Shown here: one piece after another, positions 17,301 to 42,000 of the stretch
How positions within the stretch are numbered: the first letter of the stretch is position 1
Layout: every line of letters starts with the position of its first letter
NCBI RefSeq assembly: GCF_030012215.1
Contig: NZ_JASCXX010000033.1
Span: 1 to 45,137, forward strand
From: Anaerobaca lacustris
Lineage (GTDB): Bacteria; Planctomycetota; Phycisphaerae; Sedimentisphaerales; Anaerobacaceae
DNA length: 45,137 nucleotides
Reading direction: 5' to 3'
Notes under the pieces: generated by a model
The model's input: only the letters and a program-made list of their open reading frames with translations
Told to the model about the DNA's origin: nothing
Databases searched by the model: none
Translations under genes and position numbers: made by a program

Positions 17301-17686
17301 AACTCGATGCCGCCACTGATCCAGGGGCCGGCCAGCCCAACCAAGGCGGGCTTGATCACCCGGTTGTAGTACACGAAATGGTAACCATTCGTCTTGTCCA
17401 GGGCCATCTGGACCCGACCACCCAGTTCCGGCAGAACCATGATCTGGATCCAGCGGTTCTCCAGGAACACCGCGTCGTAGGCTTGATCGACCTTGATGTC
17501 ATAGATCTTGTCGATCACCGGGTAGGGGTAGACCACACCACTGGATCCCTGATAGACCCGCTTTTCCAGGAACATGGGATTCTTGTTTGGTTCACCAATG
17601 CGGTAGGTCGCAAGGGTGATCCGCTGGACCCAAATGCGAACCGTATCGGTAGTTCCCGTTGTCTTCATCGATTGTCTGCGGGTCAC
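14318..17686 (-). CDS. DUF5107-type protein with long TPR region
   Basis: The 1122-aa protein has an N-terminal mutarotase-like beta-sandwich region (about 40-330: VIDKIYDIKVDQAYDAVFLE, VLPELGGRVQMALDKTNGYH, AGPWISGGIEFNWPQHHRP), the pattern of DUF5107 proteins. About 630 residues of tetratricopeptide repeats follow from about 477 (NNALGLLYYRRGCFLEAEKHF, YYNLGLALRMQGRFDEAFDAF and more). No signal peptide is seen. DUF5107/TPR proteins occur in sugar-utilisation loci and are thought to act on or bind sugars; the reaction is not established to my knowledge. The start is a GTG at 17686 with AAGGGG six bases upstream; an ATG at 17668 lacks a ribosome binding site. It is the first gene of the operon that continues into GH2 and the symporter, and a candidate operator lies about 180 bases upstream. 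Confidence 0.8.
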   Translation of the reverse strand: MTRRQSMKTTGTTDTVRIWVQRITLATYRIGEPNKNPMFLEKRVYQGSSGVVYPYPVIDKIYDIKVDQAYDAVFLENRWIQIMVLPELGGRVQMALDKTNGYHFVYYNRVIKPALVGLAGPWISGGIEFNWPQHHRPNTFGPVDWRIVENGDGSKTLWCSEIDRMFRTKGMHGLTLHPNKAYLEIDVQLYNRTAEPQTFLWWANPAVSVNDDYQSVFPQDVHAVMDHGKRDVSSFPIATGVYYKVDYSPGTDISRYKNLPVPTSYMAYHSDYDFLGCYDHGRQAGMLHVANHHIAPGKKQWTWGHGDFGQAWDRQLTDEDGPYIELMCGCYTDNQPDFTWLMPYEQKSFKQYFMPYKEIGAAKNASIEAALNLEVRERTVRIGVYVTSPRHDLTIRLHRGDQVFFEMMGIAATPEEAVIEEIELEAPVPAHELTVRLYDACGREMLSFSPIKVHPDDIPEPAQPALPPAEIATTEQLFLAGQHLEQYRHATYDPRPYYEEALRRDPTDVRNNNALGLLYYRRGCFLEAEKHFRRAVNTLTQRNPNPYDGEPYYNLGLALRMQGRFDEAFDAFYKAVWNAVWQDAGYFELARIACHRGDLPVALELVERSLLCNGVNHKARHLKAAVLRHLGQLKQALDETERAQSLDPLDFGSLYESALTAAAQGQRAEADSKIALLDQVMRGNLHNTIELALDYAHAGLWSEAIALLQRCPDDDALRWYYLGWCKGRAGDTDGAQSAFDQAAVIRPGTVFPNQLECIDVFETALRFCPLDGYASYHLGNYLFARRAHDRAIDAWERARDLHPDFPTVHRNLGLAYYNKQRDVSAARAAFEQAFALDATDARVLFELDQLYRKLNRSPNRRLALLEAHSDLVVERDDLSIERVALLNRLGRHEEALDILTQRQFHPWEGGEGKATGQYVFALVQAARAALERRDYQDARDLLKRALVYPANLGEGKLPGAAENHIHYYLGVACEALGLTQEATGWLEKASVGLREPASAIYYNDQPPDSMYYQGLALQKLGHDREAQIRFEALVEYGRAHLEDEPTMDYFAVSLPDFLVFDEDLVSRNRIHCLYMMGLGRLGLGQTREAMSCLDEVLECDRMHLGAWSVHPGRTPTTETVEQ

Positions 17687-23610: not shown

Positions 23611-24576
23611 CTATTGAACCTTGGAATCCTCGGTTCGCCAGCGATCGAAGACCGCCCGCATCTTGGCCAACTGGATCGCCACGTGGGCGTATTCGTTTCT
23701 GCCGGCGTGGAACTCGGCGCTGTAGGAGCCCTGATAGCCAGCGTCGTGCAGATTCTTCATCTTCTCCTCCAGCGGCCCCTCCGCAATGTTCCACGCGAAG
23801 TGCGTATGACAGACCCACGGCGCGACAAGCCGGTCCGCCTCGTCCTTCTCCGCCTGTGTGCCGTGCCAACCTCCGATGTGACAGGAAATCCCGAACGCCG
23901 GGTGATCCACCGCCTTATAGAGTCTCTTCAGATTGGACCAGACGGCCTCCGGCCCCCAGTGGTTCTCCGCACCGATCATGAAGCCATGATCGTAAGCCCA
24001 CTGCGCGTATTCCTTGTACCGCCCGACAATGTGATCGAACTGCTCGTTGGTCCAGCTTGAACCGCTTCCGCCTGCATCCAACCGCATGAACTGCGCCCCG
24101 AGGATCTTGGCCGCCTTCAGATTCGCCAGGGCATATGCATGATTCTTCTGGCGTTTGGCGGGATCGTCTTCCCAAATATGCACTTGGTCCGCGCACAGAT
24201 CGGCCAGCACCAGCTCGCGCTCGTCAAGGGCCTCGCGTACCTTCTTCAGATAATCCTCCTCCATGCTGGTCAGAAAGCCGTTCCAGATATCGGCGATACT
24301 GAGGTTGTACCGGTACTTGCAGGTTTCCAGATACCCAAACACATCTATCTTGCCTTGCTCCAACAGCCCTCGAAACGAGTAAGACAGAACGGACAACCTC
24401 ATCGGTGGCTCTCCGGCACGCTTGGTGTCCTTGGTCTTGAGGCGGGAGGATACGGGAACGGCTTTGTTGTCGGCAGCAACGGCTGAACCGGTTGTGCCGC
24501 TGACGCCGGAGGCAGCCGCCGCTGCTGTGGCCATCAACGCCCCTTTCATGAAATCGCGACGATTGCTTGTGCTCAT
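23611..24576 (-). CDS. Tat-exported TIM-barrel sugar isomerase/epimerase-like protein
   Basis: The 321-aa protein begins MSTSNRRDFMKGALMATAAA, a twin-arginine signal (NRRDFMKG) followed by an alanine-rich helix. The mature part is a xylose-isomerase/AP-endonuclease-2-type TIM barrel (LSVLSYSFRGLLEQGKIDVF, ILGAQFMRLDAGG, FMIGAENHWGPE, GISCHIGG, CHTHFAW, YSAEFHAGRNEY). The acidic and histidine residues in AENHWG, CHIGG, THFAW and AEFH are the usual divalent-metal ligands. Such proteins epimerise or isomerise sugars, and some members act as lyases on 3-keto-glycosides. Tat export means the protein folds before export and works outside the cytoplasm. It lies between a Gfo/Idh/MocA gene and a hydrolase gene with gaps of 47 and 16 bases, in one operon. 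Confidence 0.85.
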   Translation of the reverse strand: MSTSNRRDFMKGALMATAAAAASGVSGTTGSAVAADNKAVPVSSRLKTKDTKRAGEPPMRLSVLSYSFRGLLEQGKIDVFGYLETCKYRYNLSIADIWNGFLTSMEEDYLKKVREALDERELVLADLCADQVHIWEDDPAKRQKNHAYALANLKAAKILGAQFMRLDAGGSGSSWTNEQFDHIVGRYKEYAQWAYDHGFMIGAENHWGPEAVWSNLKRLYKAVDHPAFGISCHIGGWHGTQAEKDEADRLVAPWVCHTHFAWNIAEGPLEEKMKNLHDAGYQGSYSAEFHAGRNEYAHVAIQLAKMRAVFDRWRTEDSKVQ

Positions 24577-24623: not shown

Positions 24624-26132
24624 TCAGGCGGTCAATTCCCAGCCTTTTCGATACTCGCGTGCCAGGTACTTGTTGGCCGACTGGGGGTTGGCAATCCTGC
24701 CGCCGGCCGCGTCCCAGATCAGCCGCTGGCCGCCCAGCCGCAGCGAAATCGCCGCCAGGTTGAAGGCGTCGGAGATCGGCCCGGCCAGCGTGAAATCGCC
24801 GCAGTTCGGCTTACCGCTTCTGAACGTCTCGATCCACGAACTGCCATGCTCCCACGCGCGCGGCGCCCGCGCAGTGTCTTCGCTGAGCTCGCCGGCTGCC
24901 CCTGGTGACAACAGACGCGGATTGTCGCAGCGGAAGCCGCCGAGGATCTTGCCCTTGTCACCGACGAACATCATCCCTTCGGCCGGCAGTCCCTTATCGT
25001 CGCGCACGATCTCTTCCGGTGTCGGCGGTCTCATGCCCCCATCGTGCCAGAACAGGTCCACCGCCGGGCGGTCGGCCTTGGCGGCAAACCTGAACCGAAC
25101 CGTGCAGGCGACGGGGAAGGAGTAGTCGTTGTGGACCTTGCTGCTGACGCCGTCCACGACCTCGCAGACGTGGCTGGGCGTCGATTCCACCATGGATAGA
25201 TTGTCCAGACCGAACTCGTGGAACACGGGCCACAGGCTGTAGTGGCCCATGTCGGCAATCGGCCCGCCGCCGAACTCATACCAGCCGCGAAAGACCGCGT
25301 GTGTGTAGTGCGGATGATAGGGCCGCGGCTGCGACGGTCCCAGCCACAGGTCCCAGTCGAAGTCCTTCGGCACGGGCGGCGTATCCGTCGGAATCGTCGC
25401 GTGCTGCGGCCATACCGGTCGGTTGGACCAGTTGTGAATCTCGCGCAGGGCGCCGATGGCGCCTTGCCGGATCCAGCCGGCCACTTGGCGAATCCGTGGG
25501 TCGATACTGGCCGGCATGAAATAGGTGCCGACCTTGGTCTTGCGGGCGGTCTCAATGACCAGCCGGGCTTCCTGCAGCTTGTTCGCCAAGGGCTTGTGCA
25601 TTCCAACGTGTTTACCCTTTTTCATCGCCGCAATGGCGATGGTCGCGTGGAGATGGTCCGGCGTCATCACTTCGACTGCGTCAAGGTCCTTCTCCTTCTC
25701 CAACAGCTCTCGAAAATCGGCATAGGAGGCACAGCCCTTGAACTGGCCCGAAGCCTGCCGCTGGGCATAGCCGGCCTCAACGATGGCCTGGCCAATGTCT
25801 CGTCCTCCGGGAATGCTGCCGGCTTTCCACGAATCAGGCTTGCCCAACACCCGGGCGATAGACCGCCGCAGGCCGTCGCGCGACCAGTCCACGTAGTTGA
25901 CGCCGTCCTTCTCCGGATCGCACACGGCAACCACTTGCAGCTCCGGCGTCCTAACCCTCGCCATGAGGTGTCCCAATCCCATTGTCCCGCAGCCAATGAG
26001 GCAGATGTTGATCTTCTCGCTGGGGGCGACATTCCCAACCCCACCCAGCACGTGCCGCGGCACAATCGTGAACGCTGCCGCCGAAGCGGCCGTGCCGCTG
26101 AGGAACTTCCGCCGGTTCATCTGTGTGTTCAT
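24624..26132 (-). CDS. Tat-exported Gfo/Idh/MocA-family oxidoreductase with HKP motif
   Basis: The start at 26132 is set by GGAGA six bases upstream; the frame extends further but overlaps non-coding leader. The 502-aa protein opens with a Tat signal (MNRRKFLSGTAASAAAFTIV). A Rossmann fold follows (INICLIGCGTMGLGHLMARV, GxGxxG), then VMTPDHLHATIAIAAMKKGKHVG. The segment usually reading EKP is GMHKPLAN here, so the family lysine is kept but the glutamate is a histidine. The C-terminal alpha/beta domain includes WDLWLGPSQPRPYHPHYTHAVFRG, common in planctomycetal members. These enzymes oxidise or reduce sugar hydroxyls with bound NAD(P). It is flanked by two isomerase genes with short gaps, which suggests oxidation followed by isomerisation or elimination outside the cytoplasm. 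Confidence 0.9.
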   Translation of the reverse strand: MNTQMNRRKFLSGTAASAAAFTIVPRHVLGGVGNVAPSEKINICLIGCGTMGLGHLMARVRTPELQVVAVCDPEKDGVNYVDWSRDGLRRSIARVLGKPDSWKAGSIPGGRDIGQAIVEAGYAQRQASGQFKGCASYADFRELLEKEKDLDAVEVMTPDHLHATIAIAAMKKGKHVGMHKPLANKLQEARLVIETARKTKVGTYFMPASIDPRIRQVAGWIRQGAIGALREIHNWSNRPVWPQHATIPTDTPPVPKDFDWDLWLGPSQPRPYHPHYTHAVFRGWYEFGGGPIADMGHYSLWPVFHEFGLDNLSMVESTPSHVCEVVDGVSSKVHNDYSFPVACTVRFRFAAKADRPAVDLFWHDGGMRPPTPEEIVRDDKGLPAEGMMFVGDKGKILGGFRCDNPRLLSPGAAGELSEDTARAPRAWEHGSSWIETFRSGKPNCGDFTLAGPISDAFNLAAISLRLGGQRLIWDAAGGRIANPQSANKYLAREYRKGWELTA

Positions 26133-26211
26133 GTTCTTTCTCCAATTCTGATATTGCGGCTGCATGGCTCCAGGTACAAAGTGTGGGCCGGTGCAACCTT
26201 CTCCGGCCAGG

Positions 26212-27159
26212 TTACTGGGCCAGAAGCTGCCTGGCCTGCTCGTCGACGAAGGCGACATTCCTGGCCATATCCTCCTGCAACGCCGGGGTATCGTGCTCGA
26301 AATCAATGGTGATCAGCCCCTGGTAACCCAATCGCTTCAATTCCTTCAAGGTATTCGCGCAATCGGCCTGGCCTTCGCCAATAACGGTGTTGCGGGAGTT
26401 GAGATCCCCTTTCTTGAGTACATCCTTCAGGTGGAATGTGATGATGCGGCCCTGCAACTTGCGCAGACACTCGACCGGATCCAGGCCAGAGCGTGCCCAT
26501 TGCCCGCCGTCGGCGCACGCGCCAATTCGTTCGCTCCGGTTCGCGCAGACTTCCAGCACGATGTCGGGGCTCCAATACTTCGACTGCCCCTTCTGATGGT
26601 TGTGAAGGGCCAACCGCATCGTGTATTCCTCGCACAGCTTCTCCAGCATGTCGAAGGAGCCTTCGGGCGGCTCAGCCACGATGACCTCGGTGCCGAATCC
26701 CTTCCAGAACTCGAAGAGGCGCTTGGCCTGACCCAGTCCGCCATGGAAATCAGCGAACACACTGGGGATGGCCAGTCCCAGGTCGGCAATCCTCGCTTTG
26801 AATTCTTTGCGGGCATCTTCCGGCATGGCCTCGTTTGCGTCTTTGCCAGGCCACGTGGGCCCCATCTTCAGGTTGCTGCGAACCTCGAAGTACCGCAGGC
26901 CCACCGCCGCCGCCTTTTCCAGCGCCTCGAAGAGGGTGAAGCGCCGGTAGGTGTACTGCTGGACGCTCATCTTCCAGCCGAGTTTGGTGGCGTTGGGCTG
27001 GCCGGGTTTGGCCGCCTCGGCCAGGGCCGTGAGTCGCGAGCCAAGTCCCGCCCCCAGAGCCAGCGCGCCGGTTTTCCACAGGAACTGCCGGCGCTTGAGC
27101 GGGACGGTTCGGTAGTCATGATCGGTGCGGACTGCTTTCTGTGCAGGTTTCATTGCCAT
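26212..27159 (-). CDS. Tat-exported TIM-barrel sugar isomerase/epimerase-like protein
   Basis: The 315-aa protein has a twin-arginine signal after a basic start (VPLKRRQFLWKTGALALGAG). The TIM barrel begins LGWKMSVQQYTYRRFTLFEAL and includes RLALHNHQKGQSKYW, IGACADGGQWARSG, IITFHLKDV and ITIDFEHDTP, with metal-ligand-type residues in each strand end. It is a close relative of the isomerase module inside the fusion at 29863-34014, which has LGWRLGIEAYTFHKYTFFET and NVAIHNHGQNISPLYW in the same places. It is likely to act on an oxidised or free sugar outside the cytoplasm. Gaps to neighbours are 79 and 86 bases within the same run of genes. An ATG two codons downstream is an alternative start. 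Confidence 0.85.
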   Translation of the reverse strand: MAMKPAQKAVRTDHDYRTVPLKRRQFLWKTGALALGAGLGSRLTALAEAAKPGQPNATKLGWKMSVQQYTYRRFTLFEALEKAAAVGLRYFEVRSNLKMGPTWPGKDANEAMPEDARKEFKARIADLGLAIPSVFADFHGGLGQAKRLFEFWKGFGTEVIVAEPPEGSFDMLEKLCEEYTMRLALHNHQKGQSKYWSPDIVLEVCANRSERIGACADGGQWARSGLDPVECLRKLQGRIITFHLKDVLKKGDLNSRNTVIGEGQADCANTLKELKRLGYQGLITIDFEHDTPALQEDMARNVAFVDEQARQLLAQ

Positions 27160-27245: not shown

Positions 27246-28349
27246 TCAGGGCCGGTACTCGGGCAGACGCTCCAGCATCGTCGGAAAGAAACGGTCGAAT
27301 GGCTGATCGCTCTGCTCATATTGTGTCAAGAGTCGATAGAAGGGCTGTGACAGCGTCAGGCCCGGTTCGTGCAGTTGAGCCATGCGTGCTTCAGCTCGCT
27401 CGTGTGACTCCGGGGTGGCGGACAGCAGAGCTCTCAGCCGGTGATCCAGGGCCCGGACCAGGCATTCATAGGTGAAGCCGACCGGTGCTCGGTAGTGCTC
27501 GACCATCGGCTTGTCCTTGCCGGCTTCGTAGTACTCTCTCACCGCTACCTTCACCCTGCCGGAGTGGGCCTCCACAATGGGGTTGATGATCGAGTGAAGA
27601 TACTCGTGAATGTTCAGACCATATGAGTGAGAGCCGGGACTCTCGACGGTGTAGTAGTAGCCCTCATAGCGGGCCCCTATCGCGCGGTAGTGCATATCGA
27701 GCAGGTTTGGCACGTTCACAAGCGTCAACGTGTCGTGGCGTGGCATTCTCAAGTACTCCCAGAGAAAGGCCATTTGCTGCGTCATCCGGGCGACATCGTA
27801 CTTGCGCAGCTCGGCCGCATAGTCAGGCTGAATGCGCTGCCAGACCTCGACGACCCTGGCTGCCCGCCAGAAATCGTTCAGGATCACCGGGAAATCGCGG
27901 AGTTGCTCGGCCGTGACCGCATATCCCAGTTCCGCATCGGGACGAATTCGACGGAACGGGTAATCCGCGCTGAGGCTCAGCGCGAAATCCTGGTAGCAGT
28001 AGAAGGGGAGCTTGTGCGTCTCATAGTGCCGTCGCCACGATTCGACCTTATCGGGACAGGATGCCAGATTGGCCGCGACGAGTTCACGCACACGGACCCG
28101 AACAGGATGCATCTGTTTGCCGGGGGACTCCTCATCCAGGCCGACGGCATTGAGAAACGCCATGACCGCGAATACCCGCCGGTCCGCCAGGACCATGAAG
28201 CCCTGGCCTCTGACGATTTCGTCGGGATGATTGAAACTCACCGACTCCGGCCGCACTCTCGATGTGGATGATGAGTGACTTGAGCACCCGGCCATTGAGG
28301 CCACAACCAATACCGTCCACACCGAACATACTGTCTTGCATCGAGCCAT
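27246..28349 (-). CDS. lipoprotein with HEYLH (HExxH) motif, DUF4932-like
   Basis: The 367-aa protein begins MARCKTVCSVWTVLVVASMA and has the lipobox SMAGC, so it is probably a lipid-anchored exported protein. LNIHEYLHSIINPIVEAH contains a zinc-metallopeptidase-type motif H248-E249-Y-L-H252 followed by INP, which recalls DUF4932 proteins (HEFSH...NP). Elsewhere the sequence is rich in tyrosine and histidine (VEHYRAPVGFTYECLVRALDH). GAGG lies eight bases upstream of the ATG, and the gene starts 22 bases after the upstream oxidoreductase stop codon, so it is cotranscribed with the sugar-oxidation genes. A protease in such a locus could process surface proteins or glycoproteins; function is not established. 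Confidence 0.75.
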   Translation of the reverse strand: MARCKTVCSVWTVLVVASMAGCSSHSSSTSRVRPESVSFNHPDEIVRGQGFMVLADRRVFAVMAFLNAVGLDEESPGKQMHPVRVRVRELVAANLASCPDKVESWRRHYETHKLPFYCYQDFALSLSADYPFRRIRPDAELGYAVTAEQLRDFPVILNDFWRAARVVEVWQRIQPDYAAELRKYDVARMTQQMAFLWEYLRMPRHDTLTLVNVPNLLDMHYRAIGARYEGYYYTVESPGSHSYGLNIHEYLHSIINPIVEAHSGRVKVAVREYYEAGKDKPMVEHYRAPVGFTYECLVRALDHRLRALLSATPESHERAEARMAQLHEPGLTLSQPFYRLLTQYEQSDQPFDRFFPTMLERLPEYRP

Positions 28350-28371: not shown

Positions 28372-29823
28372 CTACACGTCTTTCACATCAGGCACCTGGA
28401 ATCCGGGGCGATTGGCGTCCTTCAGCAGTTCATTGGCCTGGGCGGCAAACTCGCCCGTATGACGTTCCGTTCGAGGATCGAAGGTAAGCCAGGGTCCCAC
28501 GGTGTACTGATTCCCGTCTTCCGGAATGCCGACGCCCTCGCTCATGACCTCGTGGAGCTTCATGAAATGCTCGTAGGCGTCTTCGTTGTCGCCGAAACGG
28601 CCCGCCTTGGCATTGAAGGGAACGCCTTTGCCCAGGCGATACGAGTTGTTCATGAGGTGCCCCAGGACACAGCTATGGTGTGCGTCGACGGCATTGCCGT
28701 TAGCCATTTGGGGATCACCGGCTCGACAGGCCGCGATGAAACTGCCGAACTGTCCGCCCGGGGTGACCTGTCCGTCCGGGACATCGATCTTCTCCCCCTG
28801 GTCGCTGCCCTTGGGATAGTACTGTCCGCCGATGATCCTGCCGCCATCCTCGAAGTAGTACTGGTTCTCGACCTGGCGCTGGTACCCGTCATAGTTGACG
28901 TTGCGAACGTTGAAGAACACGTACTGTCCGTTGGGATACTCCGCTATGCCCAACATCGTGTTCGGGGTCTCCCCTTGATCGTTCCAGAGAAAGCGTCCAC
29001 CGATCGCCATGGCGCGAATCGGGTTGGTCAGCCCCTTGTCCAGGGCCCAGTAGGCCATGTCGAGTTGGTGGGTACCCTGGTTGTTCAGGTCACCGTTGCC
29101 GGTCTCCCAGAACCAGTGCCAGTTGTAGTGGACGTAGTTGCCGTGGTAGGCGTCGACCCTCGCGGGGCCGCGCCACAGATTCCAGTCCAGATTCGCCGGC
29201 GGAGCGGAAGGACTCTTGAAGCCGATACTGCCGCGCGGTTTGCAGCAGTACCCATACGAAATCTTCAGCTTGCCGAACTTGCCGGAACGTATGAGATCGT
29301 GCAGTCCAGCATTCTTGGTGCTGCTGCGGCTTTGCGTGCCGTGCTGAATGACCACGCCGTATTTCTTCTGCGCCTCCACCACGACGCGCCCCTCCTGGAC
29401 ATCGTGGCTCATGGGCTTTTCCACGTACACGTGCTTGCCGGCTTGGGCCGCCCAGATCGTCATCAGTGAATGCCAGTGGTTCGGCGCGGCAATGGAAATC
29501 GCGTCCACGGTCTTATCGTCCAGAGCTGTCCGTATATCGGCCACACCCTTGCAGCCAAACCGGTCCCCGGTCTTCTCTTTGACTTCGGCCAGTCGCCGAT
29601 CCAGGACCTGCTGGTCCGGATCGATCAGGTAGGCGAGTTCCACGTTCTTCTGACCCAGCCAGGCATTGACGTGACCGGCGCCTTGGCCGTTCACGCCCGC
29701 TACCGCGATGCGCAGACGATCATTGGCACCCAGGACCTTCGTGGATCGGGCGCCGCAGACGATGAATGCCGTTCCGGCGGCCAGTGAATTCCTCAGGAAT
29801 GTGCGTCTTGTGGTCTGTGGCAT
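28372..29823 (-). CDS. Tat-exported Gfo/Idh/MocA-family oxidoreductase
   Basis: The 483-aa protein starts with a Tat signal (MPQTTRRTFLRNSLAAGTAF). The Rossmann fold is intact (RIAVAGVNGQGAGHVNAWL), IAAPNHWHSLMTIWAAQAGKHV leads into the canonical VYVEKPMSHD (EKP motif), and the C-terminal domain includes NLDWNLWRGPARVDAYHGNY and GDLNNQGTHQLDMAYWALD with the conserved histidine. It would oxidise or reduce a sugar with bound nucleotide cofactor loaded before export. It lies 39 bases after the five-module fusion and 22 bases before the lipoprotein gene. It differs from the oxidoreductase at 24624, which has HKP; two distinct oxidoreductases may catalyse the oxidising and the regenerating step of one pathway. 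Confidence 0.92.
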   Translation of the reverse strand: MPQTTRRTFLRNSLAAGTAFIVCGARSTKVLGANDRLRIAVAGVNGQGAGHVNAWLGQKNVELAYLIDPDQQVLDRRLAEVKEKTGDRFGCKGVADIRTALDDKTVDAISIAAPNHWHSLMTIWAAQAGKHVYVEKPMSHDVQEGRVVVEAQKKYGVVIQHGTQSRSSTKNAGLHDLIRSGKFGKLKISYGYCCKPRGSIGFKSPSAPPANLDWNLWRGPARVDAYHGNYVHYNWHWFWETGNGDLNNQGTHQLDMAYWALDKGLTNPIRAMAIGGRFLWNDQGETPNTMLGIAEYPNGQYVFFNVRNVNYDGYQRQVENQYYFEDGGRIIGGQYYPKGSDQGEKIDVPDGQVTPGGQFGSFIAACRAGDPQMANGNAVDAHHSCVLGHLMNNSYRLGKGVPFNAKAGRFGDNEDAYEHFMKLHEVMSEGVGIPEDGNQYTVGPWLTFDPRTERHTGEFAAQANELLKDANRPGFQVPDVKDV

Positions 29824-29862: not shown

Positions 29863-32800
29863 CTAGCGTGCGTATTCGCGAAATTCGTTGTCGAGCTGTT
29901 GTTTCGTTCTGGAACCGTCGTAGAGGATCACACGGAACTTGAAGGGGGCGGTTTCGCCCTTCTTGAGGGTCAGGTTAAAGGGTTGCGGGTTCTCAACCTT
30001 GCGCGACTTCTCGAAGGCGGATTGGCCCAAGGGATTGGCGGCAAAAGCGCCGTAGCCCCGAGCATGCCAGTAGGTCGGATAGTTGGTGCTCGTGGGATGA
30101 TTGAGAATAGCGAGGCCCACGGTCGCGCCGTTGTGCTTCCCCTGGATGCGAACCCATTCGGCGCGCTTGCCCCAGACGCCCTGTTCCTTCTCATCTCCGT
30201 TGCTGCTCAGGTAGGCGCCGGTTCCGCCGCTCTCCGTGAGCCATTGGGGCAGACGGATGGCGAACATGCCCTCCTTGGTGACCCCGAATTCGACGGTGTC
30301 TGCGACCGCCTGCAATTCGATGTCGAAGTCGATGATATGCTGATCGCAGCCCGCGATGAAGCGGGTCAGCCGCTTCTCGACCAGCAGGGTGTCATTGTTC
30401 TTGTCGATCCAGTGCATAACGGAGTGTATGGCTGGATTGCCCTGGGGGTCGTTGGCTGTTTGAGCCTTGATTTGCCTGATGATGGGAAGGGGCTGGGTGC
30501 TGTTATTCCAGAACTTGTTTCCGGGGATGTCATAGGTGAAATAGAGCCCCATGTGGTGGGGGTGATCCGGTGCCTCGCCTTCGATCTTCTCGAAGGGCCA
30601 GCCGCGTGTGACTTTGATGCCCGATGGTGTGCGGAGGGGATGGAGCACGGGTTTGGTGAGCAAGACGTTTTCGGCGGCGAGGGGTTTTGCAGGATCGAGT
30701 TGGTAGATATAGCTGGTGAAAGGTTTGCCATCAACCAGGACATCGATGCTGCCGGAAGTCTGGCGCAGTTCGGCCTTGGGTTTGTCCGCAGCGTTCGGGG
30801 TTCCTGCGGCCCAGCGGATGCCGCGGACGAGCAGATCGCGATACTCCGGACAGGCGTAAGCCTGCTTGTCGTGACCAAACTGGATGTTGAAGACCCGCGA
30901 GCGGCCGTACTGGCGCGTCCAAGCGACCGGTTCGTCGTTGTCCGGGTGATCCGTCGTCAGCAGGACGTGGTTGCCCTTGGCCCACCAGCGGCCCCGGTAG
31001 GTTTCATCGTGGATCGTGAAGTCCTTCATGCCCCGGGTGATCGGGTGCTTGTCGTCACGGACGGATACGGCTATATCCTGGCCGCCCTTGCACTTGCAGT
31101 GCGGCCACAGCTTGCCGTCGATCTCCACATCGAAGTAGATGTACGCGGTGCCGATGATCTGGTGGTACTCCAGCCAGCTCTGGAACGCCGCTTCTGCGTG
31201 GTGTACCACGACGACGCCGACACCCTTGTCCTTCAGGAGCCGTACGAAGTTGTCCTGGCGCTTGGGGGAGATGTTCTGCGTCATGTTGTAGAGCAGCACC
31301 ACATCATGATTCCACTCGCTGATATCCTCGAATACCTCGCTCTCGTCTTTCAGGGGGTGTTCGAAGTACTTGATGTCATCGCAGCCTTCGAACATAGCAA
31401 AGAACGGTTCAGGGTCGAAATGATGCCCGCCCGTGACAACGAGGACGTCGATCTTATCTGGGTCCCCGAAGGATTTGGCCTGGGTTTCGGAGGCAGGTTG
31501 CAGCGTCGTTGCATTGCCCCCTTTGTTGTCTTCGTCCCGGATCAACCGGATGGAAAACCCGGATCTCTTTTGATGATTGTTGTCGCCGTACTTGGCAAAC
31601 CGGCTGTGAATGCTGGACATATACGCATGAGTCGATTTTTCGTGCGGCGTGGTGCTCCACCAGTATTGGCTGATTCCAATTGCGTGGAAACTTCCATCGT
31701 TCCAACGACTGCCGGCGGGAACGGCCGAGAAACCGGATTTGTTGTTTGATTTCAGGTCGTTGCCAGCCGTTCCTTCGGCGGCGTCAAAGCCCCAGTCGCT
31801 GGTCGAGGTCATTGATTTGCCAACCTTGTTTCCTTCCGTGGTTCCGTCGTAGTTGTAGCCGTTGGCAATCAAGTAGTCCCGGAGCGCCAACTGGTCTTCA
31901 CGCGTCGGGACCCTCCAGCCCTTGGGCGCAATCTTCTCGTGGCTTGCGGCCCACCAGTTGTACAGCAATCCGTATTTCTTTCCATGCTCGGGGTTGTTCT
32001 CGTAATAGCAGAAGCCCGGAGTGGCAAGGCCCTGCCATTCGGCAGCATCGGTTACGTTGGGAATCGGCGTGCCGTCATTGAATTTCGTCGTTCTGAGGTT
32101 CTCGACCATCCACACCTGATTACCAATCTTCACCGTGTGATAGATATTCCCATCCACGTCCTGCACGGTTTCGGCAGAGGCCGCCGGGATCGACGGATTC
32201 GGGGTCTCCGCAGCGAGCTTGAGCGTAGTTGCGTTGAAGAACTCGATGCACTTGGCGATTTTGGGCATGGAGTCAAACCAGTCGTGCGAGTATTCCAGGC
32301 CGATCATCGTCGGCTTGATGCCCTGTCGGTGCAACTCTTTGAAGAACTCCTCGGACTTACCGATGCCCGTTCCCCATGGTACGTCGTGGCCCTTGCCGCC
32401 CGGTTCGTGCAGATCGTGCATCTGCACGGTGATGATGCGATCCTTCAAAAGGCGCACAGCTTCGATTGGATCAATGCCCGAACGCAGCCAGTAGCCGAGG
32501 TCGGGCGCAGCGCCGATCCGCTTGCTCCGGCCTTCGCAAGCCTTGAGCACGCCTTCGGGACGCCAGTACAGCGGAGAGATGTTCTGGCCGTGATTGTGAA
32601 TGGCGACGTTGATGCCGTATTCGTTTGCGAATTTGTCGAGCAGATCGAGTTGCTCCGGCTTGGGCTCGCACATGAAGGTTTCAATGCCCATCTTGCGGCC
32701 GAACTCGAACAGCTTTCGACATCCGGCCTCGTCGCCGGGAATATCCTGGGCGTAGTAGGTCAGCAGCCGCACCCCGCCGGAGTCCATCTTGAGCCGAATA

Positions 32801-34014
32801 TGCCGCAGCTCGTCGTCCGTAAGATGCTGATCGAAGTTCTTGGGGATGTCCTCGCTGACGCGCTGCATGAAGCTCAGGCCGCCGATGTAAGGCAGGCCGA
32901 GCTCGGCGGTCTTCTCGATGGTCTCAAAGAAGGTGTACTTGTGGAACGTGTAGGCCTCGATACCCAGCCGCCAGCCGAGCTTCTCCTGCGCGAGGACGGC
33001 GGGCGCGAGCTTCGCACTGGACGTGGTGGGCACATGCAAGTCCCCGAGAACGAATTGCGCCGCGTCCAGATAGAACTGCAGCATCTTGGGATCCCGAAAG
33101 ACGCTGTCACTATGGGCGAGGGAGCAGTAGAAGACCCGACCGCGTCCGTAGTTGCGTATCCAGGCGACCGCGTAATCGTTGTCTTGGCGCAAGAGGTGCT
33201 CGTCCGGCTTGAAGCTCGAAAGATCCGTCTTGGCGACGTCCATACTCAACAGCACGCGATTGAGCTGGCGGGAGTAAGGGGTGTGAAATCGAAAGAACTC
33301 GTCACGTCTTTCGAAGCCTTGCCCGCCAAACGCTCGACTCAGGGGATGATCCGGCTCGTCGATTTTGACCCACACCCGCTCCTTGTCGTCTCGATGGTAG
33401 GCGCCGCGAGCGCCAATCATGTTGCCAAACTCCGGCCAATCCTCGATGGGCGGCCATTGCCAGTCCATGAAGGCGATCGATGTTCCGTGGACGCCCATGA
33501 GTCCGCCCCCGCCGGTGACAAACTCCAGAAGGTTCTGCCGCAACTGGGGATCGGGAAACGTATTGCCGATGGTGTTATTCAGAAAAACGGCATCGAACTG
33601 CTGGAGCGATTCGCGCTCGAAGACGGCGGGATCTTCGCTGACGATTGTCTCAAAGGCACCGGTCTTTCGGCCCATGAGCGCAAATGCCTCGCAGGCGTGC
33701 GCTCTGGAGGGGCGATGTCCGCCGTAGCCGACGTTGCGCGAGAAGATAAGCAGCCGACGGGGCTTGGCGGGCTGGACACGTGCTTTCACAGGCAGAGCCT
33801 CTTCGATAAGCCGGCGGTGTTCGAGATTCGGAGTTAGATCGTCAGCCGCAATGGCCCAAGAGCTGAGGAGCAGGAGGATGGTCAGGATGATCCTGCCCCC
33901 GGCGGTTTTGCGCAGGCGACCCGTGGGAATGTCGTGTTCTCTGTCGATTCTCGCGTAACAAGCAGTACTTCGTCGAACTGTTGTGACACAGCCAAATATG
34001 GTTCGAGTTTGCAT
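29863..34014 (-). CDS. five-module exported fusion: ThuA - TIM isomerase - FISUMP - ThuA - DUF6807
   Basis: The single open frame encodes 1383 residues. After a basic start and a hydrophobic export segment (GRIILTILLLLSSWAIA, about 41-57) come a ThuA-like module at 85-325 (RRLLIFSRNVGYGGH, FVTGGGGLMGVHGTS), a xylose-isomerase-like TIM barrel at 346-595 (NVAIHNHGQNIS, IITVQMHDLHE), a Fibrobacter-type major paralogous (FISUMP) domain at 616-828 (DGNIYHTVKIGNQVWMVENL, GLLYNWWAA, GWRVPTREDQ), a second ThuA module at 854-1072 (IDVLVVTGGHHFDPEPFFAM, GVGVVVVHHAEAAFQSW), and a DUF6807/PmoA-like module at 1083-1383 (SIDVLVDGKPFTSYIY, APDHPHHMGLYFTYD). No frameshift or internal stop is seen. It is the first gene of the seven-gene run, divergent from the ECF sigma gene. 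ThuA of rhizobia acts with a Gfo/Idh enzyme in keto-sugar metabolism; the combined reaction here is unknown. Confidence 0.88.
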   Translation of the reverse strand: MQTRTIFGCVTTVRRSTACYARIDREHDIPTGRLRKTAGGRIILTILLLLSSWAIAADDLTPNLEHRRLIEEALPVKARVQPAKPRRLLIFSRNVGYGGHRPSRAHACEAFALMGRKTGAFETIVSEDPAVFERESLQQFDAVFLNNTIGNTFPDPQLRQNLLEFVTGGGGLMGVHGTSIAFMDWQWPPIEDWPEFGNMIGARGAYHRDDKERVWVKIDEPDHPLSRAFGGQGFERRDEFFRFHTPYSRQLNRVLLSMDVAKTDLSSFKPDEHLLRQDNDYAVAWIRNYGRGRVFYCSLAHSDSVFRDPKMLQFYLDAAQFVLGDLHVPTTSSAKLAPAVLAQEKLGWRLGIEAYTFHKYTFFETIEKTAELGLPYIGGLSFMQRVSEDIPKNFDQHLTDDELRHIRLKMDSGGVRLLTYYAQDIPGDEAGCRKLFEFGRKMGIETFMCEPKPEQLDLLDKFANEYGINVAIHNHGQNISPLYWRPEGVLKACEGRSKRIGAAPDLGYWLRSGIDPIEAVRLLKDRIITVQMHDLHEPGGKGHDVPWGTGIGKSEEFFKELHRQGIKPTMIGLEYSHDWFDSMPKIAKCIEFFNATTLKLAAETPNPSIPAASAETVQDVDGNIYHTVKIGNQVWMVENLRTTKFNDGTPIPNVTDAAEWQGLATPGFCYYENNPEHGKKYGLLYNWWAASHEKIAPKGWRVPTREDQLALRDYLIANGYNYDGTTEGNKVGKSMTSTSDWGFDAAEGTAGNDLKSNNKSGFSAVPAGSRWNDGSFHAIGISQYWWSTTPHEKSTHAYMSSIHSRFAKYGDNNHQKRSGFSIRLIRDEDNKGGNATTLQPASETQAKSFGDPDKIDVLVVTGGHHFDPEPFFAMFEGCDDIKYFEHPLKDESEVFEDISEWNHDVVLLYNMTQNISPKRQDNFVRLLKDKGVGVVVVHHAEAAFQSWLEYHQIIGTAYIYFDVEIDGKLWPHCKCKGGQDIAVSVRDDKHPITRGMKDFTIHDETYRGRWWAKGNHVLLTTDHPDNDEPVAWTRQYGRSRVFNIQFGHDKQAYACPEYRDLLVRGIRWAAGTPNAADKPKAELRQTSGSIDVLVDGKPFTSYIYQLDPAKPLAAENVLLTKPVLHPLRTPSGIKVTRGWPFEKIEGEAPDHPHHMGLYFTYDIPGNKFWNNSTQPLPIIRQIKAQTANDPQGNPAIHSVMHWIDKNNDTLLVEKRLTRFIAGCDQHIIDFDIELQAVADTVEFGVTKEGMFAIRLPQWLTESGGTGAYLSSNGDEKEQGVWGKRAEWVRIQGKHNGATVGLAILNHPTSTNYPTYWHARGYGAFAANPLGQSAFEKSRKVENPQPFNLTLKKGETAPFKFRVILYDGSRTKQQLDNEFREYAR

Positions 34015-34389: not shown

Positions 34390-34920
34390 GTGCAATCTTT
34401 GGCAAAACAGGATTCCGGACAATTCGTCAGACTCTGGATTCAACACCAGAACGATCTGCTGCGCGCGATCGCACCGCTGGTGGGGTCTGTGAATGATGCG
34501 CAGGACGTGCTGCAGGAAACAGCGCTGGCGCTTTGGAGGAAATTTGACAAGTACGACCAGCGGCAACCGTTTCTGCCTTGGGCCAAGCAGTTCGCCAAGT
34601 ACGAAGTGCTGATGTACCACCGTCGGCGGCAGCGTTACACGTTTCTCTCCGAGCAGCTCATCGACGCTCTGGCCGAGCGACAGAAAGAGGCGGAAACGAT
34701 CGGCGAGAATCATCGGCGCGTACTGGCAGACTGCATGAACCACCTGCGCGACTCGGACCAGCGTCTACTCCGCCTGCGGTACGCCGAGCCGGGCACGACG
34801 ATCCAGCAGATTGCCGAAGCCACCGGGCAGACAGCCAATGCCCTGTACAAAACCCTTCAGCGCATCCGCCGACAACTCCTGCTCTGCATCGAGCGGAAGC
34901 TGGCCTATCCGGAAGGTTGA
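34390..34920 (+). CDS. ECF-type RNA polymerase sigma factor, Rhodopirellula/Verrucomicrobium family
   Basis: The 176-aa protein contains sigma region 2 at about 10-75 (VRLWIQHQNDLLRAIAPLVG, NDAQDVLQETALALWRKFDKY, FLPWAKQFAKYEVLMYHRRR) and region 4 at about 115-170 (DQRLLRLRYAEPGTTIQQIA, TANALYKTLQRIRRQLL). The LWRKFDKYDQRQPFLPWA stretch is typical of the planctomycetal ECF family. The first codon is GTG at 34390; a TTG at 34399 has GAGGTG six bases upstream and may be the true start. The FecR gene follows after 17 bases, the usual sigma/anti-sigma arrangement, so activity is probably held in check by that membrane protein. The divergent catabolic run starting at 34014 is the obvious candidate regulon. 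Confidence 0.9.
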   Translation: MQSLAKQDSGQFVRLWIQHQNDLLRAIAPLVGSVNDAQDVLQETALALWRKFDKYDQRQPFLPWAKQFAKYEVLMYHRRRQRYTFLSEQLIDALAERQKEAETIGENHRRVLADCMNHLRDSDQRLLRLRYAEPGTTIQQIAEATGQTANALYKTLQRIRRQLLLCIERKLAYPEG

Positions 34921-34937
34921 ACCAAGAGAACGAAGCG

Positions 34938-36905
34938 ATGGACGACAAAATGCAACATGAGCTTGATTCCTTGCTTTCAGCTCTGGTCGATGGGGGCTTG
35001 CGAGATGACCAGCAGCGGCGCCTCGGGCAACTGCTCGAGCAATATCCCGAAGCGCAAGATATCTACCTTGCCTACTTCCGTCTCCATACAGAGCTGTCTC
35101 TGACCGGCGGTCTCAGCGACGTCCTCCAGGACCGGCCGCCAAAATCAGTCTGGCGGCCGTCGACCGCAACGCCGCTCGCCCGTACCCCGTCGGTCTGGTG
35201 GCTGTGGTCAGGAATCGCCGCCGTCATCGCTCTTGTGGTGGCCTTTTGGCTTGTGTCCTCGTCGCGACACGCTCCTTCGGCACCGATTATCGCCAGGCTC
35301 ATGACCGCGGAAAACGCGAGATGGGAGTCTGCACGCCCCGTTAAGGGTGGAGAATTCACTCCGGGAAGACTACGGCTCGAAGAGGGAGCCGCTCGCATCC
35401 GGATGGTCAGCGGCGCCGATATTGTCCTCGAGGCACCTATGGTCGTCGAGCTGGTCGATACGATGACCGTCCGCCTCGAGCAAGGCCACCTGACGGTCTC
35501 TGTCTCGGACAAGTCCGTGGGCTTTCGCGTGCTCACGCCAATGGCACATTTGGTGGATATGGGGACAGAATTCGGTGTCGAGGTCGAGGAGAGCGGGGCG
35601 ACGGAAATCCACGTGTTTCAGGGTACCGTGGTGGCCAAATCGACCGCTTCGGGGAGTGTGATACCGATTGCCGCCCAGGAGGCCGGACGCATCGATGCCC
35701 CCCGCGACCAGCGCGACCTGACGTACGGCGAGTTTGTCTCGGTCAAACTGGACCGCACCCGCTTTCGCGGTCTCTCGGCATCAGCCGTTCCGACGACGGT
35801 CGGTACGAACACCCACAGCGCCGCTCGGACGATACGACGTCTTCAGGCCGGGGCGCGCATCGTCTTTCTGGGCGACCACGCCACGTCGCGCGAGACACAC
35901 CTCTTGCTCATCAATCAAGCCTTCGCCGACCTCCCGCCCGAAGTGGCTCCACGCCTGTTCAATGCGGCCTGGGCTTTTCCCCTTTCATTCAGCGAGCAGA
36001 ACTACCGGCAATACGTCGAGTCTTTTGCACCAACCCACGCAGTGCTCGAGTTCGGTCCGGAGATTGCCGGCTTCTCGCAACCTCGCTCTCCCGACGACTT
36101 CCGGCAGGCGGTTGCGCGGCTGGTCGACCGCCTGGAGCAGTCAGGTATCGAACCGATCATCGCGACGGGTTTTGCCATCCCACAGAGCCATCCACGGGCC
36201 CAGGAACTCCTGGATAGCTACAACAACTCCCTCCGCCAGCTTGCTATCCAGCGGGGATACCGGCTGGCTGATGTGGATGTGAAGTCGCGGAAGCACCCGG
36301 ACTCCGAGCCGGAGCTGGTCAACACCTACTTCGCGCCCACCTTCGAGGGCTTTCGCGTTATGGCTGCCGCGTTGCTCGAGTCGTTCGGCTATGCCGAACT
36401 CTCGGCGCCACGGTCCCTGGACGTTTCGCTGTTGCCGGGAGTCATCACCAGTTGGAGAATGCGAGTCAGGCCCAATGAAGATCGTTTGGATGCCGATGCT
36501 ATGGCAATCTTGGCAGTCGACGAGACCTGGACTCGGCTTATCCTGCCTCAGCACGATAAGCTCTCACAGCGCCTGGCCCAACCCGGCAGGTCGTTCGTTC
36601 ATCACGACCGAGCCAGGGGATTCGCGACCCATCTGACCGATGCGGACGATCAGATCGTACAGGCGGTTTCCTTTGTCGAGTCTGAAACGGACCGCAACGT
36701 GTTCTTCAACACGGGCGCGAGGCTGCTGACCATCTGGCTCAACGGAGAGAAGATCTTCGATAGCGACAACCCGTGGGGCGGTTGGCACCCAGGCAAAGAA
36801 AGGATCCCCGCCAGACTTAAAGTCGGACGCAACCAAATCGTCATCGAGGCGCAGGATGCGTTCTTTCTGAGCATCACAGACCAGCGCGAGTGGGCACTTC
36901 CGTGA
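34938..36905 (+). CDS. FecR-type anti-sigma protein with degenerate SGNH-hydrolase-like domain
   Basis: The 655-aa protein has a short cytoplasmic region (MDDKMQHELDSLLSALVDGG), one membrane helix at about 87-109 (WWLWSGIAAVIALVVAFWLV), a FecR domain at about 140-245 (ADIVLEAPMVVELVDTMTV, LVDMGTEFGVEVEESGATEI) and then an SGNH/GDSL-like region at about 305-480. In that region the nucleophile motif GDS is GDH (H314), and the later Gly-x-Asn-Asp and Asp-x-x-His blocks are not evident, so the fold seems kept without catalysis. A C-terminal beta-sandwich follows (LTIWLNGEKIFDSDNPWGGW). The protein probably senses an extracytoplasmic ligand and passes the signal to the sigma factor encoded just upstream. 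ATG at 34938 with a modest AGAG-type binding site. An 8-bp inverted repeat (GAACCGCC 36904-36911, GGCGGTTC 36936-36943) straddles its end. Confidence 0.85.
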   Translation: MDDKMQHELDSLLSALVDGGLRDDQQRRLGQLLEQYPEAQDIYLAYFRLHTELSLTGGLSDVLQDRPPKSVWRPSTATPLARTPSVWWLWSGIAAVIALVVAFWLVSSSRHAPSAPIIARLMTAENARWESARPVKGGEFTPGRLRLEEGAARIRMVSGADIVLEAPMVVELVDTMTVRLEQGHLTVSVSDKSVGFRVLTPMAHLVDMGTEFGVEVEESGATEIHVFQGTVVAKSTASGSVIPIAAQEAGRIDAPRDQRDLTYGEFVSVKLDRTRFRGLSASAVPTTVGTNTHSAARTIRRLQAGARIVFLGDHATSRETHLLLINQAFADLPPEVAPRLFNAAWAFPLSFSEQNYRQYVESFAPTHAVLEFGPEIAGFSQPRSPDDFRQAVARLVDRLEQSGIEPIIATGFAIPQSHPRAQELLDSYNNSLRQLAIQRGYRLADVDVKSRKHPDSEPELVNTYFAPTFEGFRVMAAALLESFGYAELSAPRSLDVSLLPGVITSWRMRVRPNEDRLDADAMAILAVDETWTRLILPQHDKLSQRLAQPGRSFVHHDRARGFATHLTDADDQIVQAVSFVESETDRNVFFNTGARLLTIWLNGEKIFDSDNPWGGWHPGKERIPARLKVGRNQIVIEAQDAFFLSITDQREWALP

Positions 36906-39016: not shown

Positions 39017-42000
39017 CTAACGGGCCAGAATCAGCACCGCCCACTGGCCTTTGCCGGGCGTTTCCAGTTTCAGTGCTCGGCTGGGGGCGACGGTCTCTGC
39101 CTCCTGCCAGGCACTGCGGTTGATATCCAGCCAGCGGACCTCAAGCGGCCCCTGTGCGGCCGAGACATCGACTGTCACCGCCCCACCGTCGGGGAAGTAG
39201 ACCGCATACTGCCGCCCGCGATCGGCGGCACAGTAGGCTTCGTTCTCCGCCCGGCTGGAGAGCAGACCGTTGTCCGGCTCGGCGACAAAGACGTTGAATT
39301 CATCGGTGAATATCCGCACGCTCTTGAGGTGCGTCTGAGCCAGCTCGCTCAGCCCGACACCATATAATCCGGGCCTGGGCCCCGGACGGTGGAAGCGCGC
39401 GGAAGCGCACCCGCCGAGGATGTTGTGCCAGAGCTTGCGCGTCGCTTCGACGACGCTGCCGCCGTGGCGCTCGCCGCCGTATATCTTCACGTTGTTCATC
39501 GGGCGCGGCGGCTCGGCGATCAGCTTCCGGGCCGCCTGCATGTTGTCCCAGTGCGTCTGGCCCACCTGGTGGTTGTTCTGAGAGATGTCGACATAGGAGT
39601 AGAGATCGGGGTGGTCGAAGGTGCGGCGGTGCATCGGGCTGTTCAGGTTCCAGGCGTCCCACATCTCCGTGACCTCAACGCCCGCGCCGGCCTCCGCCGC
39701 CTTGGCGCGGATGAACTTCGCCCAGTGGCGGCTCCACTCCTCGGAGTCGTTCGTTTCGTTGGAGATGCAGTAGAGGACGTTGCCGTAGCCAAGCGAGATG
39801 GAGAGCATCTTTTCGACCAGGGTCTCCTGGCGCGCCAAGAGGCTTGGGTTGTCCTCCAGTTCCGGGAGGCTGCGGAAGAAGGGGTTCTCGCGCTGGCCCG
39901 GATGACTCGATATCGCTTCCTGCAGGCCGCTCTCGTCGGCGGTGTAGTTGGTGTTGTTCTTGGGGTTGAAAGGGTTCACATCCCATGAGCCGCGGGCGTA
40001 GTCGAAACGGTCGAACACCTCGATCTGGACGATGATGTCTCGGTCGCGCGTCATGCGCAGGAAGTCGTCGAAACGCTGCCAGTACTGCGCGTTGAAGCGG
40101 TCAAGATCGTAGCGGCCGGTCTTTGCGTCTCGGTGGTACGGCCAAAGGTCGCCATCGCTGTAAGTGGCCATCGTGTTCCGGATATAGTTTCCTCCTACCG
40201 AAACCAGCAGGTCAAGATGGGACTCCAGCCCGCTCGGCGGAAGCGCATCGGGGCGATTGAAGGGGTTTACCGTGTCGCTACCGCCCAGCAGCAGGACCGG
40301 CTGGCCCTTGTACTGCCAGTAGCGGGGATTGGCCTCATAAGGCCGAATGCGGTTGCTGCTCGCCTCGACGGACGCGGCGGGCGATCCACTGCTCGATGAA
40401 CCCGCGAGCAGCACCCACGGTTCGGCTGACGGCGCGGCCAGGGACGGGGACTGGGCGTCAACACGCCCCTCGCCCGCGAAGGCACCGGTGCGCGGATTGA
40501 ACCAGCGATAGGGCAACGCACGCTGGAGGCCGGTGAGCGTCGCTGAGCCGCCTTCGGGCAGATAGACGATGTAAAGCTCGCCCGGTTTGCCGACAGCCTG
40601 CGGACCGAGGTCCGGCAGCTTGGTCATATCGGTGATGTCATAGTCCGCCAGCGCACGGCCGACGTACCCGACGTACCGGCTGCCCTCCTGCTGCATCGCC
40701 TCGCGCCAGGAGCGGCCGGGCGCATTGGCCCAGGCAGGCCAGCCGGGCTCATCCGCGAAGAGTTTCCATTGCCACAAGCCGCCGGCGCCATAAACGACGC
40801 CCATCGTGCCGGCGGCGGTGAGGTTCAGCCAGGCCTCGTGGCCCTGCCACCAACCAGCGCCGTTGTTGGCATCGCGGATCCCCTCATACGTGGGTTCGCC
40901 GTTAGCGACGGCCTTGATCGGCAGGTTGTCATGCATCCGGCGGACCTTGTCCGGCAGGTGCTTGCCGCCGTGACCGGTCTGGCACCACTGGAAGTCCAGC
41001 CACGGCGCATCCTGCATTGAGCGGTTGTAGTGGAAGCATTTGTCCTTCGCCTGATTGGAGGGCTGGTAATCGTCGAAGGGGTTGTAGTGGAATCCCGTCG
41101 GCTGCCGGTAGGCGTCCCAGCGCTCGACTTCCTCGCCACCGGCGATGGTGCAGGGATAGGCGCCGACGCCGTCACCGCTGACGAGCCACATCGCCGGACG
41201 CGCGCCGTAGCGCGCGACGAGGTAGCGGCAATAGCGGGCATATTCGGCCGGGACCGCATGAGTGCCGAGCACGCGCTGGCCCTTCCAGCCGTAACCCTGG
41301 AAGACCGGCTGCAGCACCGGCACGATCCCGTGCGCGTGCAGGATGTCGAGCAGACGGTCCATCATCTGGAAATACTCAGGGCGCAGCCGGTTGAGGTGAC
41401 CGTCGGGCAGATCCTCGAAACCCACATCGAAGCCGCCGACCTCATGGCGGTTGCGCGGCCCGCGGGCGTCGCGGTCGGGCTGTACGGTCATCAGCAGGGC
41501 CGCGTTGAAGCCCTTGGCCTGCCGGTCGCAGGCGTACTCGGTGACCGCCTCGACGGTGCCCCGCCACGGCAGCGCCCACGGGGTGTCCGCGACCATCACG
41601 AAGGGCGTGCCGTCCTGGTGGATGACGTTGCGCTTGCCGGGCGACATCTTGAGCAATCCGTGCCGGGTCAACGGGTGATCGCCCCCGTAGGCGGATACTT
41701 GGAGCTCGCCGTGGCGGTGGTGCAGTCCGCCGTCGTTGGGTTGTGAGCATTCGCTGCGCCAGGTCCAGCGGCCGGTGGCCGGGGCCGCGAGGCGGACGAT
41801 CCAGGTGCGACCGCCGTCCCAGAAGGCGGGACGGCGCAACGTGCGCTGGTCCGGGCCGCGGAACTCGACGTGCAGATCGATGTCGGTATACGGGTTGGCG
41901 TAATCGCGGTCGGCGATGAACATCAACTCCACGGGCTCCCATTGCGCCGCCCGGCCGGGCTGCGCGAGTTGGTAGTTCGTCATCCGGTCGTAGAAGTCGG

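Follow-up and report, generated by a model that had tools for sequence, protein, structure and literature searches.

The window analysed here, a stretch of 45,137 nucleotides of Anaerobaca lacustris (contig NZ_JASCXX010000033.1 of assembly GCF_030012215.1), carries on its minus strand, at 29863..34014, a gene whose 1383-aa product combines two ThuA modules, a triosephosphate isomerase (TIM) barrel, a FISUMP domain and a DUF6807 domain. The gene is confirmed as a genuine open-frame fusion, and the protein that it encodes combines about four older units in a mosaic. An earlier reading of this DNA, made from its letters only (the sequence-only reading), had regarded the protein as a candidate for an undescribed system. 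Since this genome and its relatives fuse the same parts in several ways, that claim is not upheld, and the protein appears to be a rare fusion drawn from a well-known toolkit for oxidised-sugar breakdown, not a new kind of system.

Architecture of the fusion protein

The five modules lie in one frame of 1383 codons in the order ThuA, TIM barrel, FISUMP, ThuA and DUF6807, as the sequence-only reading had claimed. The features of this open reading frame (ORF) are as follows.

29863..34014, minus strand: fusion protein P0001, 1383 aa (ORF call; zero internal stops; ATG and ribosome site)
33841..34014, minus strand: N-terminal extension with a signal-like segment, residues 1-58 (judged by eye from the sequence)
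33052..33756, minus strand: ThuA module 1 (ThuA1), residues 87-321 (Pfam PF06283; H176 and H301 conserved)
32215..32988, minus strand: xylose-isomerase-like TIM barrel, residues ~343-600 (Pfam PF01261, best stretch 455-592; match to 3p6l)
31537..32133, minus strand: FISUMP domain, residues 628-826 (Pfam PF09603, NCBIfam TIGR02145, AlphaFold2 model)
30790..31467, minus strand: ThuA module 2 (ThuA2), residues ~850-1075 (second Pfam ThuA stretch; H938, H939 and H1048)
29881..30747, minus strand: DUF6807 domain, residues 1090-1378 (Pfam PF14100)

All domains were called with Pfam, each above its curated cut-off. ThuA (PF06283) scores 220.5 bits over the whole protein, in two stretches, against a cut-off of 33.4 (E 3.8e-65), AP_endonuc_2 (PF01261) scores 47.5 bits against 31.1 (E 2.4e-12), Fib_succ_major/FISUMP (PF09603) scores 134.4 bits against 33.9 (E 7.2e-39), and DUF6807 (PF14100) scores 213.6 bits against 27 (E 5.3e-63). 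FISUMP is also recognised by NCBIfam TIGR02145 (98.3 bits, cut-off 41.65). Because the five domains are recognised independently, their co-occurrence in a single frame is not due to chance. The start codon is an ATG at 34014 with an AAGGA-type ribosome site just 5' of it. No in-frame ATG, GTG or TTG is present between residues 825-873 (linker 2) or 1060-1109 (linker 3), which leaves ThuA2 and DUF6807 without a start of their own in these stretches; linker 1 has GTG codons in frame at 617, 620 and 628. The GC content of FISUMP (54.8%) is the lowest of the five modules, the others ranging from 58.4 to 59.6%. A hydrophobic, signal-like segment can be seen by eye at residues ~41-57, and the protein is probably exported, in keeping with the sequence-only reading.

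Most conserved residues of the enzyme-type domains are kept. In ThuA1, H176 and H301 are conserved in all 16 rows of alignment A3, and H938, H939 and H1048 of ThuA2 in all nine rows of alignment A6, so that a comparison of the two copies, proposed earlier, finds conserved residues in each; the pairs H176/H301 and H938/H1048 may be catalytic. The ThuA module had been described as duplicated. Two ThuA stretches are indeed present, but they are divergent, and a recent duplication is ruled out by an identity of only 24%. The fused TIM barrel matches 3p6l across residues 343-597 (E 2e-48) and has the motif residues E450, H473, H475, D505, Q531/H533 and E574, to which metal-ligand roles were assigned from the beta-eliminase AtOGE by motif order alone. 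DUF6807 retains R1137, H1151, H1153, E1248, H1306, H1317 and R1319, which are at least 95% conserved over 43 rows, and this suggests an enzyme.

Distribution and mosaic ancestry

A second assembly independently confirms the ThuA1-TIM-FISUMP junction. The contig L040 (RPQV01000574.1, 3268 bases), from a metagenome-assembled genome (MAG) labelled Calditrichaeota, encodes in a single ORF ThuA1 at ~95% identity, TIM at ~94% and FISUMP at 87% over its first 54 residues, where the ORF runs off the contig inside FISUMP. Independent support covers ThuA1-TIM and these 54 residues, and the FISUMP-ThuA2 and ThuA2-DUF6807 junctions are seen in the A. lacustris assembly alone. While the junction is the same as in the window, the upstream DNA is different and AT-rich: in L040 (1170-1315 and 1329-3268), the gene, at 58% GC, directly follows DNA of 41% GC with a short ORF resembling a twin-arginine translocation (TAT) signal. 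The gene therefore looks foreign there, owing either to a transfer or to a chimeric contig. Elsewhere in the same MAG, a ThuA2-type protein (70%) and a DUF6807 protein (56%) are encoded by separate genes, which seem too divergent to supply the end that L040 lacks.

The full order was sought more widely, in genome sets that partly overlap and with the best few candidates per genome scored. Of the 161 genomes of the order, 128 have a match to some part of the protein, and a whole-length match is found only in the window's own genome among the matches listed. Likewise among the matches listed, there is no full-order homologue in the order, in the class (397 genomes) or in the phylum (392 genomes), the latter two searched with residues 560-1383, nor among 60 relatives of the L040 MAG, and ThuA1-TIM-FISUMP was not found in the 146 and 142 genomes related to two Verrucomicrobiota MAGs. 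The full order was also not found in 32 loci from a peptide-pattern search of genome contigs. Plasmids (58 matching records) and phages (three) have no place that covers 80% of the query, the best plasmid match being a TIM gene adjacent to a DUF6807 gene in Gemmatirosa. No literature on this fusion was found by title and start of abstract among open-licence PMC papers. The search for the same domain order called for by the sequence-only reading has thus yielded no full-order homologue among the matches listed, with L040 supporting the first three modules only.

The modules had been taken to be normally separate proteins. This holds for ThuA2 and DUF6807, which are found free-standing or within other fusions, but not for ThuA1 and TIM, which commonly form one protein of two domains. 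The two share one ORF in all 29 of the other best-scoring loci of the order (L011-L039), and FISUMP is present in none of the 29; these loci were picked by score, not as a random sample, and two are cut by a contig end. Their ThuA1-TIM ORFs are mostly 567-714 aa from stop to stop. The same arrangement without FISUMP is seen in L041-L045, where one ORF reaches 934 aa. An ordinary ThuA1-TIM protein, as found in the order and in Verrucomicrobiota, has ~580 aa, with the same two domains in the same order as in the window, an identity of 55-72% (the L040 gene apart) and most of the conserved residues; it ends near residue 605, whereas the window protein continues into FISUMP, ThuA2 and DUF6807. With ThuA1-TIM established as a two-domain protein in its own right, the number of older units joined in the fusion is about four.

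Module trees give different nearest kin for ThuA1-TIM, ThuA2 and DUF6807. In the ThuA1-TIM tree, the fusion protein groups first with L072 (the L040 gene; support 100/99) and next with rows of four Verrucomicrobiota MAGs, apart from the rows of its own family and from the second copy of its own genome, and a further Verrucomicrobiota row (G165) lies on the opposite side. In the ThuA2 tree, the fusion protein groups with G039, of the same family, and G161 (100/100), and in the DUF6807 tree with G082, G005, G004 and G086, two of which are from the same genus (100/100). Each tree has at most 28 rows, with own-locus copies and rows below the coverage cut excluded. The trees are midpoint-rooted and several forks are weak; the bootstrap of the ThuA1-TIM tree had not settled, and a long-branch warning applies to the DUF6807 tree. 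The ThuA2 frame of G039 extends upstream to the contig end and its tail resembles the C-terminus of a GH95 protein of the window. This frame may be another ThuA2 fusion, judging from about 15 residues.

Folds of the FISUMP and DUF6807 domains

FISUMP is rare in the order, being present in six of 159 genomes including the window's own, and it is matched in at least 19 of 60 genomes comprising the L040 MAG and its relatives. It is also common in viral contigs, being encoded in 479 of 532 pattern matches (best 80, L203-L282). An AlphaFold2 model from 23 sequences reached a predicted local distance difference test score (pLDDT) of 83.9 and a predicted template modelling score (pTM) of 0.85. Foldseek gave no matches to this model at E 0.001, and a search of the PDB with a FISUMP sequence profile gave no convincing relatives. 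With VIA-align, the model matched 8q4e (Z 7.3; root-mean-square deviation (rmsd) 5.1 over 111 aligned residues), 8oks (Z 7.2; rmsd 2.9 over 100) and 5vf4 (Z 6.9; rmsd 4.0 over 159). The VIA-align rows are mainly of C-type-lectin, EgtB and diversity-generating-retroelement variable-protein types, at Z values below the level safe for any single match. According to the excerpted text of PMC4159848, Fib_succ_major occurs in putative retroelement-diversified proteins and resembles DUF1566, the variable region of which is compared there with the C-type-lectin-fold proteins TvpA and Mtd. Given the matches to C-type-lectin-like folds and this likeness in the excerpted text, FISUMP is likelier to be a lectin-like binder than a catalyst. 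Known FISUMP/Fib_succ_major proteins belong to the same domain family as the middle domain of the window protein (Pfam, NCBIfam), whereas the window domain lies mid-chain between enzyme-type domains. Some of these proteins are putative retroelement targets, according to the same excerpts, but for the window domain such a role is unsupported, a second DNA copy of the 3' half of FISUMP being absent from the genome.

The DUF6807 domain looks mutarotase-like on a weak model. In a second look at this model (pLDDT 58), VIA-align matched it to 3ty1 (Z 14.3; rmsd 4.4 over 255 aligned residues) and 7ufs (Z 14.7; rmsd 3.4 over 215), and Z was at least 8 for 432 of 999 chains, with a mutarotase/supersandwich fold over most of its length. 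A DUF6807 sequence profile found no convincing relative among PDB structures, and none of the viral contigs was confirmed as encoding DUF6807. Among the open-licence PMC papers searched, the family appears in one, PMC10971088, and there only as a number. On a Gemmatirosa plasmid (L305:1342-3408), a TIM-barrel gene adjoins a DUF6807 gene, and the same two families are fused in C12 of the A. lacustris genome.

Neighbouring genes and oxidative glycoside breakdown

Five genes follow the fusion gene on the same strand.

28372..29823, minus strand: GFO1, GFO/IDH/MocA dehydrogenase, 39 bases downstream of the fusion gene (Pfam, NCBIfam)
27246..28349, minus strand: 367-aa protein, weakly DUF4932-like (E 0.0064, below cut-off)
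26212..27159, minus strand: TIM2, free-standing TIM barrel, 32% identical to the fused TIM (matches 8bvk)
24624..26306, minus strand: GFO2, GFO/IDH/MocA dehydrogenase (Pfam, NCBIfam; 71% homologue after ThuA2 in L167)
23611..24576, minus strand: TIM3, free-standing TIM barrel with a near-threshold TAT signal (72% homologue in L167)

A free-standing relative of the isomerase module had been placed two genes downstream. TIM2 is such a relative, but two genes separate it from the fusion gene, making it the third one downstream, and TIM3 is a further TIM-barrel gene. GFO1 homologues in the family are 78-81% identical, and the best NCBIfam match of both GFO1 and GFO2 is the glycoside 3-dehydrogenase BT_2158. 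TIM2 matches 8bvk (E 2.8e-6) and, far below cut-off, myo-inosose dehydratase. Comparable gene sets are found elsewhere. In five of five ThuA1-TIM neighbourhoods from the order, a GFO gene is directly next downstream (L163, L164, L165, L166 and L171); in five from named records, it is directly upstream in L041, L043 and L045 and ~1.3 kb downstream in L044, while L042 (5992-10484, an Akkermansiaceae MAG) has a 60% TIM2 homologue between two ThuA-TIM genes and no GFO match. L167, from the MAG that contains L040, encodes ThuA2, GFO2 (71%), TIM3 (72%) and a TIM2-like protein (35%) as separate genes in that order. In G004, of the same genus, a free-standing DUF6807 gene stands directly before GFO1, as the C-terminal DUF6807 does in the window.

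The same toolkit is fused in other ways. Three 3-keto-disaccharide hydrolase domains are fused to ThuA in the window's own genome and in G003, and a single one in G084; the own genome also fuses TIM with two hydrolase domains, TIM with DUF6807, and ThuA with HEAT. This domain scan of paralogues and relatives covered eight of ten proteins, leaving out L075 and L101. The own-genome fusions C26, C6 and C12 (open-frame lengths of 955, 732 and 615 aa) combine ThuA or TIM with the hydrolase, or TIM with DUF6807, and differ from the window protein in having two main domain families each and no FISUMP matches. Earlier work reportedly exists on the BT2156-BT2160 genes and on ThuA/ThuB of Agrobacterium. 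AtOGE (8BVK), a sequence relative of TIM2, is described in the excerpted text of PMC10628242 as an Mn2+-dependent beta-eliminase of 3-keto-O-glycosides, whose operon, like the window, pairs oxidoreductases with two sugar-phosphate-isomerase-type genes. AtOGE is a single TIM-barrel protein and not a five-module chain, and the text of that paper does not mention ThuA, nor is it one of the papers with DUF6807 or FISUMP. A DUF1080 protein is cited as a 3-ketotrehalose hydrolase in the excerpted text of PMC9007349, which cites work on BT2157. Taken together, the toolkit fusions, the best match of GFO1 and GFO2, the relation of TIM2 to 8bvk and the DUF1080 hydrolase as cited in that excerpt point to oxidative glycoside breakdown as the likeliest pathway.

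We therefore lean, with modest confidence, towards a real mosaic fusion, an exported chain that acts with GFO1, GFO2 and the TIM-barrel enzymes in oxidative glycoside breakdown. In this view, a protein consisting of ThuA1-TIM-FISUMP was probably acquired and would have been joined in frame to ThuA and DUF6807 proteins to give one exported chain. The GFO1 and GFO2 dehydrogenases would oxidise the sugar at C3, the TIM barrel might act on the resulting 3-keto sugar by beta-elimination, hydration or epimerisation, ThuA and DUF6807 (with its mutarotase-like fold) may process keto-sugar intermediates, and the lectin-like FISUMP may bind a glycan or surface. The individual reaction steps are guesses, and multi-step catalysis along the chain is likewise a proposal.

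Several observations weigh against this explanation. The complete order is known from this genome alone. GFO1 and GFO2 reach 138 and 289 bits against an equivalog cut-off of 750 for BT_2158, and are related proteins, not members. The fused TIM has no match to 8bvk at E 0.01, nor by profile at 0.1, and its Q531 sits where 3p6l has a metal-ligand-type His, with H533 two residues on; Gln is found at the Q531 position in 14 of the 15 covering rows of A3. The DUF6807 model, built from two sequences, is weak (pLDDT 58.0, pTM 0.68), with Foldseek TM-scores of at most 0.44 among the matches listed. DUF6807 stands directly before GFO1 in only one of 16 other GFO1-homologue neighbourhoods (G004), so this adjacency is not general, and in G005 the two genes are ~6.4 kb apart. 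Finally, a 3-keto-disaccharide hydrolase is absent among the 18 window proteins scanned.

It is possible, if rather doubtful, that the fusion is real but functionally neutral, intergenic stops and signal peptides having been lost in one lineage while the domains act as if apart, with no channelling or scaffold role. The full order occurs in no other searched genome among the matches listed, its parts exist free-standing or in other fusions, and FISUMP is both rare in the order (6/159) and lowest in GC (54.8% vs 58.4-59.6%), all of which would suit such an origin; however, the 1383-codon frame is intact, ThuA1, TIM, ThuA2 and DUF6807 keep most conserved residues, and the ThuA1-TIM-FISUMP part recurs in a second assembly at 93-95% (ThuA1, TIM). 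We consider it unlikely that the chain serves a different sugar pathway, such as inositol, uronate or rhamnogalacturonan breakdown. AP_endonuc_2 and GFO/IDH/MocA are broad families, which would leave room for one, as would the sub-threshold match of TIM2 to myo-inosose dehydratase and the two GH95-type, one GH2-type and one apiosidase-like proteins of the window, but 3-keto-disaccharide hydrolase is linked to ThuA and to TIM by the own-genome fusions, and AtOGE is a relative of TIM2. Misassembly that merged separate genes where FISUMP meets ThuA2 or where ThuA2 meets DUF6807 is very improbable: although the genome is a 117-contig assembly and no second assembly among those searched covers these junctions, both are in frame within linkers (a random join is in frame in about one third of cases), and the N-terminal extensions of free-standing DUF6807 homologues, which by eye resemble signal peptides, are absent from the fused domain.

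Further along the window lie two GH95-type proteins, a GH2-type protein, a sodium:solute symporter and a regulator. An ORF of 1314 aa (39017-42961) joins nucleoside-hydrolase-like, DUF5060, apiosidase-like and collagen-binding-type domains into a single chain, and a 1122-aa protein (14318-17686) has DUF5107 and tetratricopeptide repeats. Beside the fusion gene, a divergent sigma-70-family factor and a FecR-like protein (34390-36905, plus strand) are a possible regulator pair. The 367-aa protein at 27246-28349 has an HEYLH motif, which we take to be a possible metallopeptidase site.

By itself the fusion does not establish a new system. It serves as a natural label, since ThuA, TIM, DUF6807 and a lectin-like domain stand in one product beside relatives of glycoside dehydrogenases, and it would offer a 3-keto-glycoside setting in which to probe the roles of ThuA and DUF6807. 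A bolder version of the proposed mosaic fusion, which we hold to be speculative and on the whole unlikely, is that one secreted chain performs several consecutive steps on 3-keto-glycosides after oxidation, with its own lectin-like targeting domain and fed by co-exported dehydrogenases, and that DUF6807 represents a new family of enzymes with a mutarotase fold that act on keto-sugar intermediates. The interest of the protein would rise with proof that the chain acts sequentially and with a function for DUF6807. The fusion illustrates how such bacteria may build enzyme chains from acquired and resident modules.

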